Shown: positions 8,112 through 20,858 of the stretch, piece after piece
How the letters are laid out: each line of letters starts with the position of its first letter
Numbering within the stretch: the stretch's first letter is position 1
Virus record (IMG/VR): IMGVR_UViG_3300049027_000050
Location: 1 to 23,331 of that record
Origin: a virus
DNA: 23,331 nt
Strand: one strand, 5' to 3'
The notes under the pieces: model-generated
What the model was told of the DNA's origin: nothing
The model's input: the letters and a program-made list of their open reading frames with translations, nothing else
The model's database searches: none
Position numbers and translations under genes: made by a program

Positions 8112-9062
8112 ATGGCACAAGTAGCCGTAGCAGGTCGAATCATCGAAGTGAGGCCCATCGAGGGCGCTGACTTCATTCAGGCCGCGACCGTCGTTTGCGG
8201 AAGCGCTGGAATTTGGTCTGGAGTCGTGGGGAAGGACATCACCGCCGGCGACTCGGCCATCGTGTTTCTTCAGGACGCGCTCCTGCCGCCAGACGAACGC
8301 TGGTCCTTCATGGAAAAACACAAGTGGCGCGTGCGGATGGCGCGCTTCAAAGGTGTTCCCAGCGAGTGCCTGATCGTGAAGAGTGCGGACCATATGACGC
8401 CCGGTACTGATTTGGCCGAGGCGCTCGGCGTCTCGAAGTACGAGAAGCCGATTCCTCATGGCATGCAAGGCGACATCGTCGGCGCGTTCCAGGGCCACAT
8501 CCCTAAGACCGACGAGCCTAACTTCCAGAGTGTGCCTGGGCTGGTTGAACGCATGCGCACCGAGCCATGGTATGTGACGGAAAAGGCGGACGGGTCAAGC
8601 TGCACCGCCTATGTTGACGACGCCGGCCTGCATGTCTGTTCGCGCAATTGGGAGCTGAAGGAGTTCACGGCGAGCGGAGCGAAAAATGTGTACTGGGTCG
8701 CGGCGCGAAAGTACGGCCTGGAGCGCTTGCCGCAGGGCGTGGCGCTGCAATTCGAGGTCGTCGGCCCCGGCGTGCAATCGAACCCGATGGGACTCGCCGA
8801 AATCGAAGCGCGCGCCTTCACGTTGCGCGATACGCGTGAGCATCGCTACCTGTCATGGGCAGAGCTGGTCAACCAAGCGCATGCGCTCGGCATGCCGACT
8901 GCGAGATTCGTCACGAACGGCACAGCGGGCATGACCGACGACGAGCTGCGCAGGCTAGCCGAAATCAAGTACCCGAACGGCAAGCACGCCGAGGGCGTCG
9001 TGATTCGCGCGCTTGATTCGAGCTGGTCATTCAAAGTCATCAGCCTTCTGTACAAGGACTGA
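8112..9062 (+). CDS. RNA ligase, DraRnl (Rnl5-like) family
   Basis: This is a 316-residue nucleotidyltransferase with the ligase motifs in order: motif I EKADGSS (adenylated K158), SRNWELKE (about 177-184), motif III LQFEVVGPG (212-220), motif IV EGVVIR (294-299) and motif V SFKVIS (306-311). An N-terminal OB-like module of about 100 residues precedes the catalytic domain, the arrangement of Deinococcus DraRnl rather than T4 Rnl1 or Rnl2. Such enzymes seal 5'-phosphate/3'-OH nicks in duplex RNA. Here it probably repairs RNA, possibly tRNA cut by host defence. It starts after AGAGGAA and follows the hairpin repeat. Confidence 0.85.
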   Translation: MAQVAVAGRIIEVRPIEGADFIQAATVVCGSAGIWSGVVGKDITAGDSAIVFLQDALLPPDERWSFMEKHKWRVRMARFKGVPSECLIVKSADHMTPGTDLAEALGVSKYEKPIPHGMQGDIVGAFQGHIPKTDEPNFQSVPGLVERMRTEPWYVTEKADGSSCTAYVDDAGLHVCSRNWELKEFTASGAKNVYWVAARKYGLERLPQGVALQFEVVGPGVQSNPMGLAEIEARAFTLRDTREHRYLSWAELVNQAHALGMPTARFVTNGTAGMTDDELRRLAEIKYPNGKHAEGVVIRALDSSWSFKVISLLYKD

Positions 9063-10457: not shown

Positions 10458-11360
10458 ATGAAATTTATCGATGACCGAGGAGACCCGCAGGTCGCCAAGA
10501 TCGTGATGACCGCCGCCGGCGCTGTCTTCGTCTTGATCATGCTGGCCGTCCTGTGGCCATTCAGCATCGTGCCGACCGGCTACCGCGGCGTGGTGACGCA
10601 GTTCGGCGCGATCAAGGGCATTGAGGGCGAGGGTTTGGTGCTCCTGCCGCCGTGGCAGCGTCTGGACAACTTCAATATCCGAGCCGAGCAGGCAGACATC
10701 GACAAGGCAGATGGGGCCACCGCAGACACCCAGCCGGTGACGGTTTCCATGACGGTGCGCTACAACATCGCGCCCGACAAGGTCGCCGAGGTGTTCGAGA
10801 AGTACAGCCGCAACGGTGACCTCACCAGCTACATGCAGACTGCCACGTCGGACGCGCTGAAGTCCGTGACCGCGCGCTACACGGCGCCGGACCTGATTGC
10901 GAAACGAGCGCAAGTGGCGAACGACATCAAGACCAGCCTTCAGGCCAAGGTGATGCAGTTCGGCGCGGTCGTGATCGGCATCGACATGCGCAACTTTGAG
11001 TTCGGCAAGGCATACATGGATGCCATCAACGACAAGGTTACGCAGGAGCAAAAACGCCTCGCCGCCGACAACAAGCTCAAGACCGTCGAGGCCGAGCAGA
11101 AGCAGAAGGTGGCGATTGCCGAGGCTGAGGCAGCAGCGTTGCGGGCCAAGGCGGATGGCGAAGCGTACGCAAACCTCAAGGTCGCTACGGCGCAAGCCGA
11201 TGCGCTCAAGATTCAAAACGCGGCCCTGGCTCAAAACAAAGATGTACTGGAGCTTAGGCGCATCGAAGTGGAGATGGCGAAGGCAGGCAGGTGGGACGGG
11301 AAGCTGCCGCAGGCCATCTACGCGGGTGCGCCGGTTCCGTTCCTCAAGGTCGACAAGTAG
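10458..11360 (+). CDS. SPFH/Band 7 (prohibitin-like) membrane protein
   Basis: This 300-residue protein has one N-terminal membrane helix (about 14-36) and a Band 7 domain starting IVPTGYRGVVTQFGAIKGI (about 37-190). A long Ala/Glu/Lys-rich coiled coil (about 195-265) and a short C-terminal domain ending VPFLKVDK follow. The layout is that of prohibitin and HflC/HflK-type proteins. Bacterial SPFH proteins form membrane rings and HflKC controls the protease FtsH, which degrades lambda CII. A phage copy could affect lysogeny, membrane state or exclusion. It starts after AAGGAAG and is followed by a small two-helix membrane protein. Confidence 0.9.
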   Translation: MKFIDDRGDPQVAKIVMTAAGAVFVLIMLAVLWPFSIVPTGYRGVVTQFGAIKGIEGEGLVLLPPWQRLDNFNIRAEQADIDKADGATADTQPVTVSMTVRYNIAPDKVAEVFEKYSRNGDLTSYMQTATSDALKSVTARYTAPDLIAKRAQVANDIKTSLQAKVMQFGAVVIGIDMRNFEFGKAYMDAINDKVTQEQKRLAADNKLKTVEAEQKQKVAIAEAEAAALRAKADGEAYANLKVATAQADALKIQNAALAQNKDVLELRRIEVEMAKAGRWDGKLPQAIYAGAPVPFLKVDK

Positions 11361-16402: not shown

Positions 16403-16662
16403 TGGAGCGGCATCAAGCGCACGATTGGGCATCCGTTGCGATCCTTCCCGATCTCGCTGCGGCACTCTACGACGCGCCCACTGCGCAGCTCGGATGCGAT
16501 GAACGTGCGGTCTTCGTACGGCGTGTTCGCCTCGCCATCGAGGCGGCGCACCCGCGCCAAAACCGCGCCGCCGCGCTTGTTGATTGTTTCGGCCTGCCAC
16601 CCGGCAGTCGCCAGGGTCGCGGCGAAATTGTCGCGGCTGATCTTGTTGATGGTCTTGGTCAT
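16399..16662 (-). CDS. Unknown small protein, second gene of the leftward operon (87 aa)
   Basis: The ATG at 16662 is chosen because GAGGA lies 7 bases upstream; a GTG at 16686, overlapping the previous gene, would add eight residues. The sequence is mixed alpha/beta: MTKTINKISRDNFAATLATA, then INKRGGAVLARVRRLDG and TFIASELRSGRVVECRSEIG. No family is recognised. Its size and its place before a helix-turn-helix gene are typical of anti-CRISPR candidates, but nothing in the sequence proves that. Confidence 0.65.
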   Translation of the reverse strand: MTKTINKISRDNFAATLATAGWQAETINKRGGAVLARVRRLDGEANTPYEDRTFIASELRSGRVVECRSEIGKDRNGCPIVRLMPLQ

Positions 16663-16682
16663 AATGCGGTCCTCATGCCAAA

Positions 16683-16904
16683 TCACAGGCGTTGCTCGAG
16701 CACGCGCTCGCCGGTTTCGGTGTCGATCACGACGAGCATCGGACCGTAGCCCTTATATCCCCAGGCCGGGAACGCCGCGCGCGCATAGGCGGCCGCTTTT
16801 CTGCGCGCACCTTCGACGGTGCCGCGATGCTCGAAAGTCACGCCGCTTTGCTGCGCGGAATAGGCGCTGTAGCGGAGATTGCGGGGGGTGGTGATCTTGG
16901 ACAT
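16683..16904 (-). CDS. Unknown small protein, first gene of the leftward operon (73 aa)
   Basis: The start has an excellent ribosome binding site (CAGGAGGCCAC before the ATG). The protein is basic at first (MSKITTPRNLRYSAYSAQQS) with a central helix (VEGARRKAAAYARAAFPAWG) and a C-terminal strand pair (GPMLVVIDTETGERVLEQRL). No family is recognised. It is the promoter-proximal gene under the consensus promoter at 16956-16984 and so should be the most strongly expressed of the three. Confidence 0.65.
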   Translation of the reverse strand: MSKITTPRNLRYSAYSAQQSGVTFEHRGTVEGARRKAAAYARAAFPAWGYKGYGPMLVVIDTETGERVLEQRL

Positions 16905-16947
16905 GTGGCCTCCTGTGCCAGCTGCGGCGGGCCTGATTGCCCTGCCG

Positions 16948-16984
16948 ATGTCCTAAATATAGGACATGTAATAGGGCCTGTCAA
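16948..16984 (-). promoter_or_regulatory. Strong sigma-70 promoter with overlapping palindromic operator
   Basis: On the minus strand: TTGACA (16984-16979), a 17-bp spacer, and TATATT (16961-16956), close to the full sigma-70 consensus. The -10 box lies inside a perfect inverted repeat, ATGTCCTA-aata-TAGGACAT (16948-16967). A protein bound there would block polymerase. GGACATGT, part of the repeat, occurs again over the start codon of the first gene (16899-16906). The likely binder is the helix-turn-helix protein ending the operon. Confidence 0.85.
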
Positions 16985-17137
16985 GCGGTCGTGTGGCGAT
17001 CCGACGAACGGTAGTGATGTTCGCCCGACACTTGCCCGCACTCGCGCGGGTGTGGAGACCGCTGCCGAAAGTTGGCCGCCGAAAGCCATGCCACCGTCGC
17101 CCGCTCCTGGCCCGGTTCCGTCGCAAGCATAGAATCC

Positions 17138-17167
17138 TTGCGTGTGGCTCAGCAGCTAGGCTAGAAT
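17138..17167 (+). promoter_or_regulatory. Possible rightward promoter
   Basis: TTGCGT (17138-17143), an 18-bp spacer and TAGAAT (17162-17167) on the plus strand. A second TAGAAT lies at 17130-17135. The region 16985-17302 otherwise holds no convincing gene. This is where a late promoter would be expected, after the Q-like gene and before the packaging genes. The -35 match is weak. Confidence 0.35.
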
Positions 17168-17302
17168 TGTGGTAGGGACCGCAGCCGCTGCTACCGCGAC
17201 TCGCGCCCGGACTCTCCGCAGAGACACCCGCAACCACAGCCTGGCTCAATGCCTGTAGCGACTGCGGGCCGACCTTAGCGGGGATGCTTTCCCTGAAATT
17301 CC

Positions 17303-17506
17303 ATGCCCATCACCGTCCGTTTCGATCCCGGGTTCGCGAATCGCCTTGCGACGGCGCGCGACCGCGCGGTGCGGCAGGCGCTTGAGAGATCCGCGCAGAA
17401 AATTGGCGCAAAGGCGCTGGAACGCCTTCCCGACTCCATCCGTGCATATCACGCTTCCGAAGGCGTGGACGCGATTTTGACCCGTAGCAGCGGCCAATCC
17501 CGCTGA
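17303..17506 (+). CDS. Doubtful small protein (67 aa)
   Basis: This is an ATG frame with normal-looking codon use: PITVRFDPGFANRLATARDR, then AVRQALERSAQKIGAKALERL and a polar end. The helical middle reads like real protein, but the ribosome binding site is weak and no family is recognised. It lies between the possible rightward promoter and the tRNA. Confidence 0.4.
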   Translation: MPITVRFDPGFANRLATARDRAVRQALERSAQKIGAKALERLPDSIRAYHASEGVDAILTRSSGQSR

Positions 17507-17561
17507 GATAAACAACACCCGTCACGCCGAGAGCAGCGCACCCTGGCGGGTTACTTTTTTC

Positions 17562-17636
17562 TGCGGTGTGGAGCAGTAGAAGCTCGTTGGGCCCATAACC
17601 CAAAGGTCGGACGTGCAATTCGTCCCGCCGCAACCA
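17562..17636 (+). tRNA. Initiator-type tRNA-Met (CAU), unusual loops
   Basis: A 75-base cloverleaf with encoded ACCA: acceptor TGCGGTG/CGCCGCA (17562-17568, 17626-17632), D stem GAGC/GCTC, anticodon stem TTGGG/CCCAA with loop CCCATAA (anticodon CAU, 17594-17596), variable AGGTC, T stem GGACG/CGTCC. All stems pair; only one pair, T-G in the acceptor, is a wobble. Initiator hallmarks are present: three G-C pairs closing the anticodon stem and A11-U24 in the D stem, and it resembles E. coli tRNA-fMet. Odd points are U1-A72 instead of the C1xA72 mismatch, C33 instead of U33, a seven-base D loop (AGTAGAA) without the GG pair, and T loop TGCAATT with G55. These could make tRNA finders miss it. It may work as a phage initiator or as a decoy. 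Confidence 0.85.
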
Positions 17637-17974
17637 AATTCGGCGGAAAAAGCCGGCCAGAACGACCCCGCAGCGCGAGAGGGTGAAACGCCTACCGCGC
17701 TTCCGTGACGACACGGAGCCACGGGAACCGCTGGCCGCCCCGTTCCCGGCAACACCTGTCCGGGCTATGCAGACGGTCCGCCGAACCTTCCTCGCGCCCC
17801 CTTCATTCCGCGAGCCAGCGCGCGGCCCGGCCAGGGGCTCAAATGGCCGGTTCTCTCCGGTCCCCTGCGCACTCCAGAGGCTCGCTGACGCGAGTGCGAA
17901 CCGCATCAGTCCCCCAGCCTGCCGCGAGCAGGTAAGTCGGCATGGGCTGGACTAACCCCGAACACAGGAATCGC
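17637..17974 (+). ncRNA. Hairpin-rich gene-free stretch, candidate structured RNA
   Basis: After the tRNA no convincing gene is seen for about 340 bases; open frames here are Pro/Arg-rich and lack good starts. The stretch has several perfect inverted repeats: CCGTG-acga-CACGG (17703-17716), CGGGAAC/GTTCCCG (17722-17748), CCGGCCA/TGGCCGG (17827-17850), CTCGC-tgac-GCGAG (17881-17894) and CCTGC-cgcga-GCAGG (17918-17932). A GC-rich sequence forms hairpins by chance, so this remains a candidate RNA. With the tRNA it would form the 5' part of the late transcript. Confidence 0.35.
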
Positions 17975-18172
17975 ATGACTACCGAAATCCACTTCAGGGG
18001 CGAACTGCACACTATCCCGGCGGGCAGCGCACTTGTGCTGAGAGTCGACCACCATATAACGGAAAAGCAAGGCCAATTGATCCGCGCTCATTGTCGTGAG
18101 GTGCTCGGGGAGCAGTGTCGCGTATTGGTGATCGGTCCTGAGTTGACGGCGGTGGTGGCCCCGAGCTCATGA
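17975..18172 (+). CDS. Small hypothetical protein (65 aa)
   Basis: The ATG follows ACAGGAATCGC. The sequence TTEIHFRGELHTIPAGSALV, LRVDHHITEKQGQLIRAHCREVLGEQCRVLVIGPEL is a compact alpha/beta domain. Small proteins of this kind occur just before the packaging genes in related phages. It overlaps the next gene by ATGA. Function unknown. Confidence 0.65.
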   Translation: MTTEIHFRGELHTIPAGSALVLRVDHHITEKQGQLIRAHCREVLGEQCRVLVIGPELTAVVAPSS

Positions 18173-18351
18173 CGAGCGGAACTGACACCATGGCGATCTG
18201 CACCATCGACGTCAAGGTCAAGATTGCGTGGTGGGTGCGCCCTCTGATAAAGGCGGCAGCCCTCGTGCATCGTCTGACCGGCTGGCCGTGTGCAGTGGAC
18301 TGGCTGGCGCACTTCATCGTTCGGCGCGGCGTCCGTTGCCGGTTGGCGTGA
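18169..18351 (+). CDS. Small phage protein of the AWWVRP type (60 aa)
   Basis: The core VKVKIAWWVRPLIKAAALVHRLTGWP matches a common short phage family placed just before the HNH and terminase genes; members have a Trp-rich amphipathic or membrane-associated helix. An internal ATG at 18190 is an alternative start. It is joined to its neighbours by ATGA and GTGA overlaps. Function unknown. Confidence 0.65.
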   Translation: MTSGTDTMAICTIDVKVKIAWWVRPLIKAAALVHRLTGWPCAVDWLAHFIVRRGVRCRLA

Positions 18352-18704
18352 AGCTTCAGGCCCTCAAGCCACGCATCGCAACGGCGCCGGGTCGGCTACA
18401 GCAGGCCGCCACCATGGCGACAAAGCGCATCCGCGGCAGCGCCCACCAGCGCATCCGCGACCGGATCATGAGCAGGGACTGCGGCATCTGCTGCTGCGCA
18501 ACATGTCAGCGCACAGGAGCCCTGAGCCTAGCCCACGAAGTGGAGCATCGCATCCCTCTATGGGCGGGCGGCCAAGAGGACGACTCCAACCGCTACGCCA
18601 TCGCCCGAGATTGCCACAAGGTAAAGACCAGGTGCGAAGACCGGATGCGGGCGGCGGGTGGCTGGCTTCAGACGGCGTGCATCTGCGGGCAGCACGAGGG
18701 TTGA
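18348..18704 (+). CDS. HNH endonuclease next to terminase
   Basis: This 118-residue protein has Cys pairs (CGICCCATC, about 45-53; CIC, 111-113) and the HNH core AHEVEHRIPLWAGGQEDDSN ... ARDCHKVKT (H67, N81, H90). In HK97-type phages an HNH nuclease sits directly before terminase and helps it cut the concatemer at cos during packaging. The GTG start overlaps the previous stop; the terminase genes follow after a 151-base gap. An internal ATG (18414) could also start the conserved part. Confidence 0.85.
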   Translation: MKLQALKPRIATAPGRLQQAATMATKRIRGSAHQRIRDRIMSRDCGICCCATCQRTGALSLAHEVEHRIPLWAGGQEDDSNRYAIARDCHKVKTRCEDRMRAAGGWLQTACICGQHEG

Positions 18705-18720
18705 CCGGATCGAGATCGAA

Positions 18721-18752
18721 GCCCCTGCGTCAGTCTGACGCGACGGCGGGGC
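18721..18752. other. Nested inverted repeat in the HNH-terminase gap, candidate cos-region element
   Basis: GCGTCA-gtc-TGACGC (18727-18741) is a perfect hairpin nested within GCCCC/GGGGC (18721-18725, 18748-18752). It lies between the HNH nuclease and the terminase small subunit, where cos and terminase-binding sites are usually found. No T run follows, so it is not a normal terminator. Whether it is a cos element cannot be decided from sequence alone. Confidence 0.35.
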
Positions 18753-18855
18753 ATAGGCTGGGGGATAGGGGGCGTCCGATCTTTGGAGCTTTCCCTTCTG
18801 GAAATGTCCCTGTTCCTCACGCGCAAAACTCGCCCTCGAATCAAAAGGAAATCAA

Positions 18856-19179
18856 ATGGCAGGAGTGAAAGGCAAGAGCGGGGGTAAGCGTCCCAACGCC
18901 GGCCGGAAGTCGAAGCCGGCGGTCGAAATCGCGCCCGAAGTGGCAAAAGTGGTCGATGGCGAGCCTTTGGACCCGCGCCCAACGCTGGAATTGATCGCCC
19001 TGGGTCACATGGACGTGAGCCCGGCCCAGCTCAAGGCCTTGACCGCGCTGCTGCCCTACGTGCATGCCAAGAAAGGCGCCGCGGCCACGAAGCCGGAAGC
19101 CCCGGCCAAGCCTGCGGCTCCGAAGTATGGCGTTCGCTCCGGCCCTCGCTTGGCTGCCGCGGGCGGTAAACAGCTCTGA
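18856..19179 (+). CDS. terS: Terminase small subunit
   Basis: This 107-residue protein begins AGVKGKSGGKRPNAGRKSKP, the basic leader typical of phage small terminase subunits of this kind. A helical middle follows (LELIALGHMDVSPAQLKALTALLPYVHAKKG) and then an Ala/Pro/Lys-rich tail. It binds the packaging site and directs the large subunit. It has AAAGGAAATC upstream and is followed 2 bases later by the large subunit gene, as expected. Confidence 0.85.
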   Translation: MAGVKGKSGGKRPNAGRKSKPAVEIAPEVAKVVDGEPLDPRPTLELIALGHMDVSPAQLKALTALLPYVHAKKGAAATKPEAPAKPAAPKYGVRSGPRLAAAGGKQL

Positions 19180-19181
19180 CC

Positions 19182-20858
19182 GTGGACTGGACGACCGCCT
19201 GCCCGGACTGGGAGCCCCGGATTGTGGCGCGTGAGTCCCTGATCGCTTGCCAGCCGCTTTTCCCCGATGTGGCGGCCGAGGCCTGGGAGCGTTGCAGCAA
19301 CTTTCGGCTGATGGATGTCACCGGCCAGCCCCTGCTGGGTGAAGCGGCTTTGCCCTGGCTGCGCGACTTCGTCATGGTGGTGTTCGGCGCCGAAGACCCG
19401 GAAACCGGCCGGCGTCATATAAACGAGTTCCTGCTGATGGTCAGCAAGAAGAACGCGAAGAGTACGATCGCTGCGGCCATCATGCTCACAGCGTTGCTGA
19501 TGAACTGGCGCCAGTCGGCCGAGCTTTTGATCTTGAGCCCGACCAAGGAAATCGCGGACAACAGCTACAAGCCGATCCGGGACTTCATCAGGGCCGACGG
19601 GGAACTGCAACAGATCCTGAAGGTGCAGGACTATTTCCGCACCATCACCCATATCCAGACCGGCGCGACCCTCAAGGTGGTGGCGGCCGACAGCGACACG
19701 GTCAGCGGCAAGAAGGCCAGTTTCGTCTTTGTGGACGAGCTGCATGAATTCGGCAAGCAGGCCAAGGCCAGCAACATGCTGCTGGAGGCCACCGGCGGGC
19801 TGACATCGCGGCCCGAGGGATTCGTGATCTACGCGACGACCCAGTCGGCTGAACCGCCGGCCGGGGTGTTCAAGACCAAATTGGCCTATGCCCGCAAGGT
19901 GCGCGATGGGCTGATCCAGGACCGCAAGTTCCTGCCGCTGATCTACGAATTCCCCGAGGCCATGGTCAAGTCCAAGGCTTACGAGGATCTGGCGAACGCC
20001 TACGTGACGAACCCGAACTGGGGCGCGTCGGTGGACATCGAGCGCATCACCCAGCTACGCAGCCAGGCGAAGGAAGAGGGCGAAAACGAGTTCAAGGAGT
20101 TCCTCGCCAAGCACCTAAACATCGAGATCGGCCTAAATCTGCGGTCGGATCGGTGGGCCGGCGCCGACTTCTGGTCGTCATCCGAAGTCGTCCTGACCTT
20201 CGACGAGCTGCTGCGCCGTTGCGAGGTCGCGGTGGTTGGCGGAGATGGCGGCGGGCTGGATGACTTGCTCGGGCAAGCTGTCGTCGGGCGCGAGCGGGGA
20301 ACCGGCAAGTGGCTCGCGTGGTTCCATGCCTGGGCGCACAAGATCGCACTCGAACGGCGCAAGGAAATTGCTCCGCGGCTGCTGGATTTCCAGCGCGAAG
20401 GCAGCCTCACTATCGTTGACCGTCCGGGCCAGGACGTCCAGGAGTTCGTGGACAACGTGTGCCGCGTGCGAGACGCCGGCCTGCTGCCAGAGGCAAGCGG
20501 GATCGGGGTGGACGCGGCCGGCATCGGCGACATCGTGGACGAATTGGCTGCGCGCGACTTCAATGTGGACCCCGGCGGCGACGTGGTTGCCGTTAGCCAA
20601 GGGTGGCGCCTGAACGGGGCGATCAAGACCACAGAGAGAAAGCTTGCCGGCGGTGAGCTGCTTGTCGCGGCATCGACGCTCATGCCTTGGTGCGTGGGTA
20701 ATGCCAGGATCGAGGACAAGGGTAACGCCATCTCCATCACGAAGCAGGCCAGCGGCAAGGCAAAGATCGACCCGCTCATGGCCCTGTTCGATGCCGTCTC
20801 GCTGATGGCCCTGAACCCTGTCGGCAGGGCGGGCCTCTCATTCTGGGAAACCGCCTGA
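19182..20858 (+). CDS. terL: Terminase large subunit (Terminase_1 family)
   Basis: This 558-residue packaging motor has a Walker A-like VSKKNAKST (87-95), Walker B FVFVDE (181-186) and coupling motif YATTQS (217-222). The C-terminal nuclease domain carries acidic residues in VVGGDGGG (D355), GIGVDAAG (D444) and KIDPLMALFDA (D530). It drives DNA into the prohead and cuts it at the packaging site. The start is GTG, 2 bases after the small subunit. The stop shares one base with the next ATG. Length and motif order are normal for HK97-type phages. Confidence 0.95.
   Translation: MDWTTACPDWEPRIVARESLIACQPLFPDVAAEAWERCSNFRLMDVTGQPLLGEAALPWLRDFVMVVFGAEDPETGRRHINEFLLMVSKKNAKSTIAAAIMLTALLMNWRQSAELLILSPTKEIADNSYKPIRDFIRADGELQQILKVQDYFRTITHIQTGATLKVVAADSDTVSGKKASFVFVDELHEFGKQAKASNMLLEATGGLTSRPEGFVIYATTQSAEPPAGVFKTKLAYARKVRDGLIQDRKFLPLIYEFPEAMVKSKAYEDLANAYVTNPNWGASVDIERITQLRSQAKEEGENEFKEFLAKHLNIEIGLNLRSDRWAGADFWSSSEVVLTFDELLRRCEVAVVGGDGGGLDDLLGQAVVGRERGTGKWLAWFHAWAHKIALERRKEIAPRLLDFQREGSLTIVDRPGQDVQEFVDNVCRVRDAGLLPEASGIGVDAAGIGDIVDELAARDFNVDPGGDVVAVSQGWRLNGAIKTTERKLAGGELLVAASTLMPWCVGNARIEDKGNAISITKQASGKAKIDPLMALFDAVSLMALNPVGRAGLSFWETA

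Follow-up and report, generated by a model that had tools for sequence, protein, structure and literature searches.

An initiator-type tRNA gene with a linked A18/G55 elbow change in a tailed-phage sequence

The tRNA gene at 17562-17636

We observed a gene for an initiator-type tRNA in a window of 23,331 bases, which is the whole of the IMG/VR virus record IMGVR_UViG_3300049027_000050. ARAGORN called exactly one tRNA in the window, a tRNA-Met(CAT) at positions 17562-17636 of the plus strand; the match to the Rfam family RF00005 scored 53.6 bits (E 3.8e-9) against a gathering score of 29, which places the sequence among tRNAs. A first-pass annotation, made from the letters of the sequence, had described a cloverleaf with CAU anticodon, GGG/CCC anticodon stem, A11-U24 and an encoded CCA end, and this was confirmed.

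The marks of an initiator tRNA are a weak 1:72 position, A11-U24, three G-C pairs in the anticodon stem and A73. Here the 5′ acceptor strand UGCGGUG (17562-17568), with G2-C71, C3-G70 and G4-C69, pairs with CGCCGCA, one U-G pair included; U1 meets A72 (17632) in a weak pair rather than a mismatch, as in 14 of the 109 viral initiators surveyed below. After UG comes the D stem GAGC/GCUC, which has A11-U24 and thus the purine 11-pyrimidine 24 pair of initiators, and which closes the 7-base D loop AGUAGAA (17575-17581; A18 = 17578, G19 = 17579). A single G leads to the anticodon arm UUGGG-CCCAUAA-CCCAA (17587-17603), where three G-C pairs flank a loop with C33 at 17593 and CAU, as positioned by ARAGORN, at 17594-17596. 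The variable loop AGGUC, the T arm GGACG-UGCAAUU-CGUCC (17609-17625; G55 = 17615 in the Rfam alignment), the 3′ acceptor strand, discriminator A73 and the encoded CCA (17634-17636) complete the gene.

The sequence shares CAU, the GGG/CCC stem, A11-U24 and AGGUC with the tRNA-fMet of a proteobacterial sample; an encoded CCA is also usual in such tRNAs. It differs from the sampled tRNA-fMet, which has, each in 109 of 110 copies, a 9-base D loop with G18G19, U33 and U55, by its 7-base D loop, A18, C33, G55 and U1-A72. The oddities U1-A72, C33 and G55 reported in the first-pass annotation are present in the sequence. Its account of the D loop held for the length, but the GG pair is only half lost: in A-G-U-A18-G19-A-A only G18 has changed, and the retained G19 can pair with C56. 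The usual elbow contact joins G18 to pseudouridine 55; the window tRNA has A18/G55 in place of the canonical G18-U55. We did not take this contact as defining an initiator, because it is shared by nearly all tRNAs and cellular initiators with A18/G55 exist.

A linked change at positions 18 and 55

Of 138 viral or phage records, 136 could be parsed; nine had poor arms and were left out, and the remaining 127 gave 109 distinct tRNAs. The set was chosen largely by a 7-base-D-loop pattern, so the presence of such a loop in 108 of the 109 reflects the choice in large part; still, the short loop that had seemed odd in the window is ordinary in phage initiator-type tRNAs. Positions 18 and 55 were A18/G55 in 19 tRNAs, G18/U55 in 89 and G18/C55 in one, while A18/U55 did not occur. 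Eleven of the 19 had been collected through a G55 pattern, so a fair comparison needs the tRNAs gathered blind to the T loop. In these 98 non-redundant tRNAs G55 was present in eight of eight with A18 and in none of 90 with G18 (Fisher p 7e-12, kinship ignored); 89 of the 90 had U55 and the remaining one C55.

The same association was seen in the contigs. A T-loop-blind A18 pattern retrieved 13 contigs, and the T loop read UGCRA in all 13 (L173 has an extra base before the T arm). In the opposite direction, A18 was found in 21 of the 22 readable among 23 viral G55 contigs (the D arm of L134 is unclear and L126 is cut off). Eleven of 13 cellular G55 contigs were readable; eight of them had A18, one of which (L142) matches the viral L127, and three kept G18, indicating that G55 by itself can occur.

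With columns 18 and 55 excluded, many A18 tRNAs have G18 tRNAs as nearest neighbours. The best tree contained 11 changes of the double switch, three of them on supported branches; since an alignment of 75 bases is weak, three is the safe number. Judged from these alignments, the A18 and G55 oddities are one compensated, linked and recurrent change, not a random loss, and the double switch arose at least three times. The claim that the gene is not a decaying copy was thereby borne out, the loop changes being compensated and recurring in relatives, and we rejected a pseudogene, as the stems are intact and the changes matched. The recurrent swap would amount to a tertiary pair that is compensated where the contact is commonly regarded as invariant. 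It may serve as a natural test of the need of an initiator for pseudouridine 55 and G18. A literature search that covered few subscription papers found no paper on the A18/G55 variant. Other matched tertiary changes were seen in phage initiator-type tRNAs, C19/G56 (L021) and A19/U56 (L049), both counted within the 89 with G18/U55.

Initiator-type tRNAs in phages and in cells

The pattern of initiator arm plus 7-base D loop occurred in at least 120 IMG/VR contigs, and the G55 T-loop pattern in the 23 viral and 13 cellular contigs considered above. Among named phages, 19 records matched the window tRNA at E up to 10, and six of these matches covered 80% or more of the tRNA; a second viral A18/G55 tRNA (L078) matched 36 named-phage records at E 1e-3. 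The GGG/CCC-CAUAA arm was present in ten of 13 named-phage tRNA regions compared: Donnerlittchen, QDWS359, PHB04, VBv52, Haboob, D3, CP8, pf16, NTR1 and one Enterococcus phage record. By these pattern matches initiator-type tRNAs are ordinary phage cargo, not rare, and the window gene is not the exception among phages that it had been taken for. Phage tRNAs are mostly explained by codon supply, or with elongators in view; since no internal codon is read by an initiator tRNA, its wide spread among phages calls for a different explanation.

The tRNAs of Pseudomonas phage D3, Janthinobacterium phage Donnerlittchen, Stenotrophomonas phage QDWS359 and Variovorax phage VBv52 share GGG/CCC and A11-U24 with the window tRNA, those of D3 and Donnerlittchen also C33; all four keep U55, in contrast to the A18/G55 of the window. 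A18 with G55 and the UGCRA T loop of the window tRNA were found in Campylobacter phage CP8 and in initiators of draft genomes from the candidate phyla radiation and Bacteroidota. CP8 differs by C11-G24 and the cellular copies by U33 and other acceptor pairs. The CP8 tRNA is unannotated and lies between annotated genes for tRNA-Leu and tRNA-Asn (L264, about 1990-2065). In the tRNAs of three further contigs (L010, L044, L080) an initiator-like anticodon arm goes with a divergent D loop (AAC...) and with a variable region that is altered or lengthened.

Donnerlittchen and VBv52, like the window, carry no other tRNA. A lone tRNA was nevertheless rejected as an initiator hallmark: in contigs of 25-65 kb it was seen in 25 of 38 initiator contigs (8/18 + 15/17 + 2/3) and 14 of 27 tRNA-Arg control contigs. 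The contigs were drawn from 80 listed, with five near-duplicates and two badly parsed matches excluded beforehand; two controls without a tRNA were dropped, and one of the 27 is below the cut-off.

The acceptor end gave separate information. Among the 109 tRNAs position 1:72 was unpaired in 85 (CxA 23, UxU 20, AxA 14, CxU 9, AxC 6, CxC 6, UxC 4, GxA 2, AxG 1) and paired in 24 (U-A 14, U-G 5, A-U 4, C-G 1). A strong G-C pair thus stood there in one of 109, while acceptor positions 2-7 were paired in 104-109. No search pattern used the acceptor stem, so these counts point independently to an initiator constraint. A misreading, with the window tRNA in truth an elongator or a CAU tRNA of isoleucine type, as the ability of U1 and A72 to pair might suggest, is hardly credible. 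We also consider very improbable a decoy, i.e. an RNA that is made and folded and ties up an enzyme (a tRNase, a synthetase or one that modifies tRNA) while initiating nothing. The odd loops would suit a decoy, but features that an initiator requires and a decoy does not, namely weak 1:72, A73, G2-C71 and C3-G70, are conserved, and the same loop variant is apparently the sole initiator of some draft genomes.

These genomes belong to the cellular survey, in which copies were counted by eye from listings. In the class of Craterilacuibacter 100 of 114 genomes matched the initiator pattern, with 110 copies: the D loop had nine bases in 109 and eight in one, A18 and C33 were absent, U55 was present in 109 and G55 in one (a paralogue in the centre genome), and U33 in 109 and G33 in one. 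In the phylum of the Prevotella genome 53 of 118 genomes matched, with 68 copies, of which 61 had an 8-base and seven a 7-base D loop, one of the seven being the centre genome itself, with A18/G55; C33 was absent from all 68. The A18/G55 initiator was the sole GGGCNCATAACCC match in five of 13 draft genomes bearing G55 (G001, G002, G004, G011, G013), the best hint that A18/G55 can work in initiation. Neighbours of the cellular A18/G55 copies include genes for IMPDH, a pseudouridine synthase, peptidase M16 and a class II synthetase; one copy (L136) has an integrase arm domain nearby. A Craterilacuibacter initiator array (L161, G009) holds one paralogue with G33 and G55 and a normal D loop, which is one of the three cellular G55 cases that kept G18.

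C33 occurred in 12 of the 109 viral tRNAs (six of the 19 with A18/G55, six of the 90 others), as against none in the two cellular sets. In the viral and phage loci G55 was present in eight of 98 initiators and in three of 785 parsed elongators (p 2e-6, kinship ignored; 32 were unparsed and one of the three is doubtful). An elongator tRNA-His (L388) combines the T loop UGCAAGU with a D arm readable as A18 G19, so A18/G55 is not strictly confined to initiators.

The C33 and G55 counts would suit an escape variant, in which the phage initiator, through A18/G55 and C33, withstands a host enzyme that cleaves or modifies initiator tRNA, such as an anticodon nuclease of VapC type, an acetylating enzyme of AtaT type or one reading the elbow; by the titles of papers on them, AtaT and VapC do act on initiator tRNA. 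Escape is nevertheless unlikely. Cellular A18/G55 initiators also occur, beside ordinary genes; the RNA ligase of the window, a potential tRNA repairer, is not associated with the class (phrog_968 in two of 50 tRNA-bearing records, hand-picked from more than 130, against one of 50 records, this window, in the set of terminase large subunit (TerL) relatives); and one survey (PMC10264068) reports that phages generally avoid carrying a tRNA-fMet gene where VapC-LT2 attacks that tRNA. The proposal of an escape or decoy role against a host tRNase was left unsupported. Eukaryotic initiators are known to have C33 (PMC9023262), so no nuclease is needed to explain it; their T loop has A54, against T54 in the window tRNA.

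Function of the gene and its phage context

We regard the locus, with a probability of about 0.6, as accessory cargo of a tailed phage, namely a gene for a functional initiator tRNA that lies shortly upstream of the HNH-terminase block. A working copy is the most likely reading, ahead of a decoy or dead remnant, and the product most probably serves to initiate phage translation. It would be transcribed together with neighbouring phage genes and trimmed by host enzymes; host MetRS could then charge it via CAU and A73, host transformylase could formylate it via the weak 1:72 and A11-U24, and the three G-C pairs would select it for the P site. The phage tRNA would add to or replace the host initiator pool, and the initiator supply would be kept or raised in infection.

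The enzyme TruB requires U55, and initiators avoid EF-Tu. C33 and the loss of U55, hence of pseudouridine 55, may be tolerated because the tRNA need not serve elongation. One could speculate, at long odds, that A18/G55 is an initiator-favoured alternative elbow, repeatedly evolved by phages, that takes away U55 and G18, on which host enzymes modifying the elbow act, and together with C33 leaves the tRNA poorly read by host enzymes acting on initiators, so that the phage controls the start of translation. A departure from G18G19 is described (PMC4052509) for the non-proteinogenic tRNA-Gly of Staphylococcus aureus, thought to be a weak EF-Tu binder; that tRNA has UU or CU at 18-19 and a role in the cell wall, whereas the window tRNA differs at G18 alone and has an initiator-type anticodon arm.

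Several points weigh against a functional initiator. U1-A72 pairs, unlike the classical C1xA72 mismatch, and might allow the tRNA some part in elongation. The draft genomes whose one copy is A18/G55 are metagenome-assembled and may be missing genes, and with three supported pairs the sign test for the 18/55 switch cannot reach significance. The cloverleaf has a computed energy of -27.7 kcal/mol against -29.6 for an alternative fold, so naked RNA prefers the latter by 1.9 kcal/mol; a gap as large was seen in 12% of 108 such tRNAs. Finally, a clear initiator tRNA was found in none of 84 TerL-related loci (80 viral, four named phages), which suggests that the gene is dispensable, although many of these stretches are short upstream of terL and absence there is weak evidence.

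Absence from TerL relatives would also be expected if a captured cellular gene were neutral cargo or the relic of an attachment site, serving no selected function in the phage; the similar frequency of lone tRNAs in the tRNA-Arg controls and the integrase arm domain near one cellular copy point the same way. We consider this rather unlikely, as there are many substitutions and yet no stem is broken, and compensated changes imply selection. The D loop and A18 also set the gene apart from the sampled proteobacterial initiators, none of which can have been its recent source.

The window has a tailed-phage late block with genes for HNH, both terminase subunits, portal and head protease. About 300 bases (17637-17941) with no clear content separate the tRNA from the next likely gene, and a promoter and terminator scan beside the tRNA gene gave no plus-strand match. 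The first recognised gene downstream encodes the HNH endonuclease (18228-18704, plus strand; PF01844, phrog_589), followed on the same strand by the terminase small subunit (18856-19179; phrog_18735) and the large subunit (19182-20858; PF03354), which tblastn matched to phages and which marks the window as a tailed phage. Relatives by TerL are found in phages of Pseudomonas, Bordetella and Burkholderia, among others; at the DNA level, no relatives of 16600-19200 were found among named phages.

Bordetella phage PHB09, one of the TerL relatives, has an unannotated tRNA-Met (L175:2551-2625) upstream of its HNH-terminase block; two genes of a BrnT-family toxin pair follow directly on the opposite strand. 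We rejected it as an initiator-type relative: it has GGG/CCC and U1xU72, but C11-G24, the loop UUCAUAC and U73 make it a mixed type, and 620 records matching it were dropped as initiator evidence for that reason. The RNA ligase of the window (8112-9062, plus strand; PF09414), whose nearest solved relative is the Naegleria gruberi RNA ligase (E 1.8e-29), was rejected as a linked repair partner on the counts given above. A prohibitin-like SPFH/Band_7 membrane protein (PF01145, E 7.9e-33) is encoded at 10458-11360 on the plus strand.
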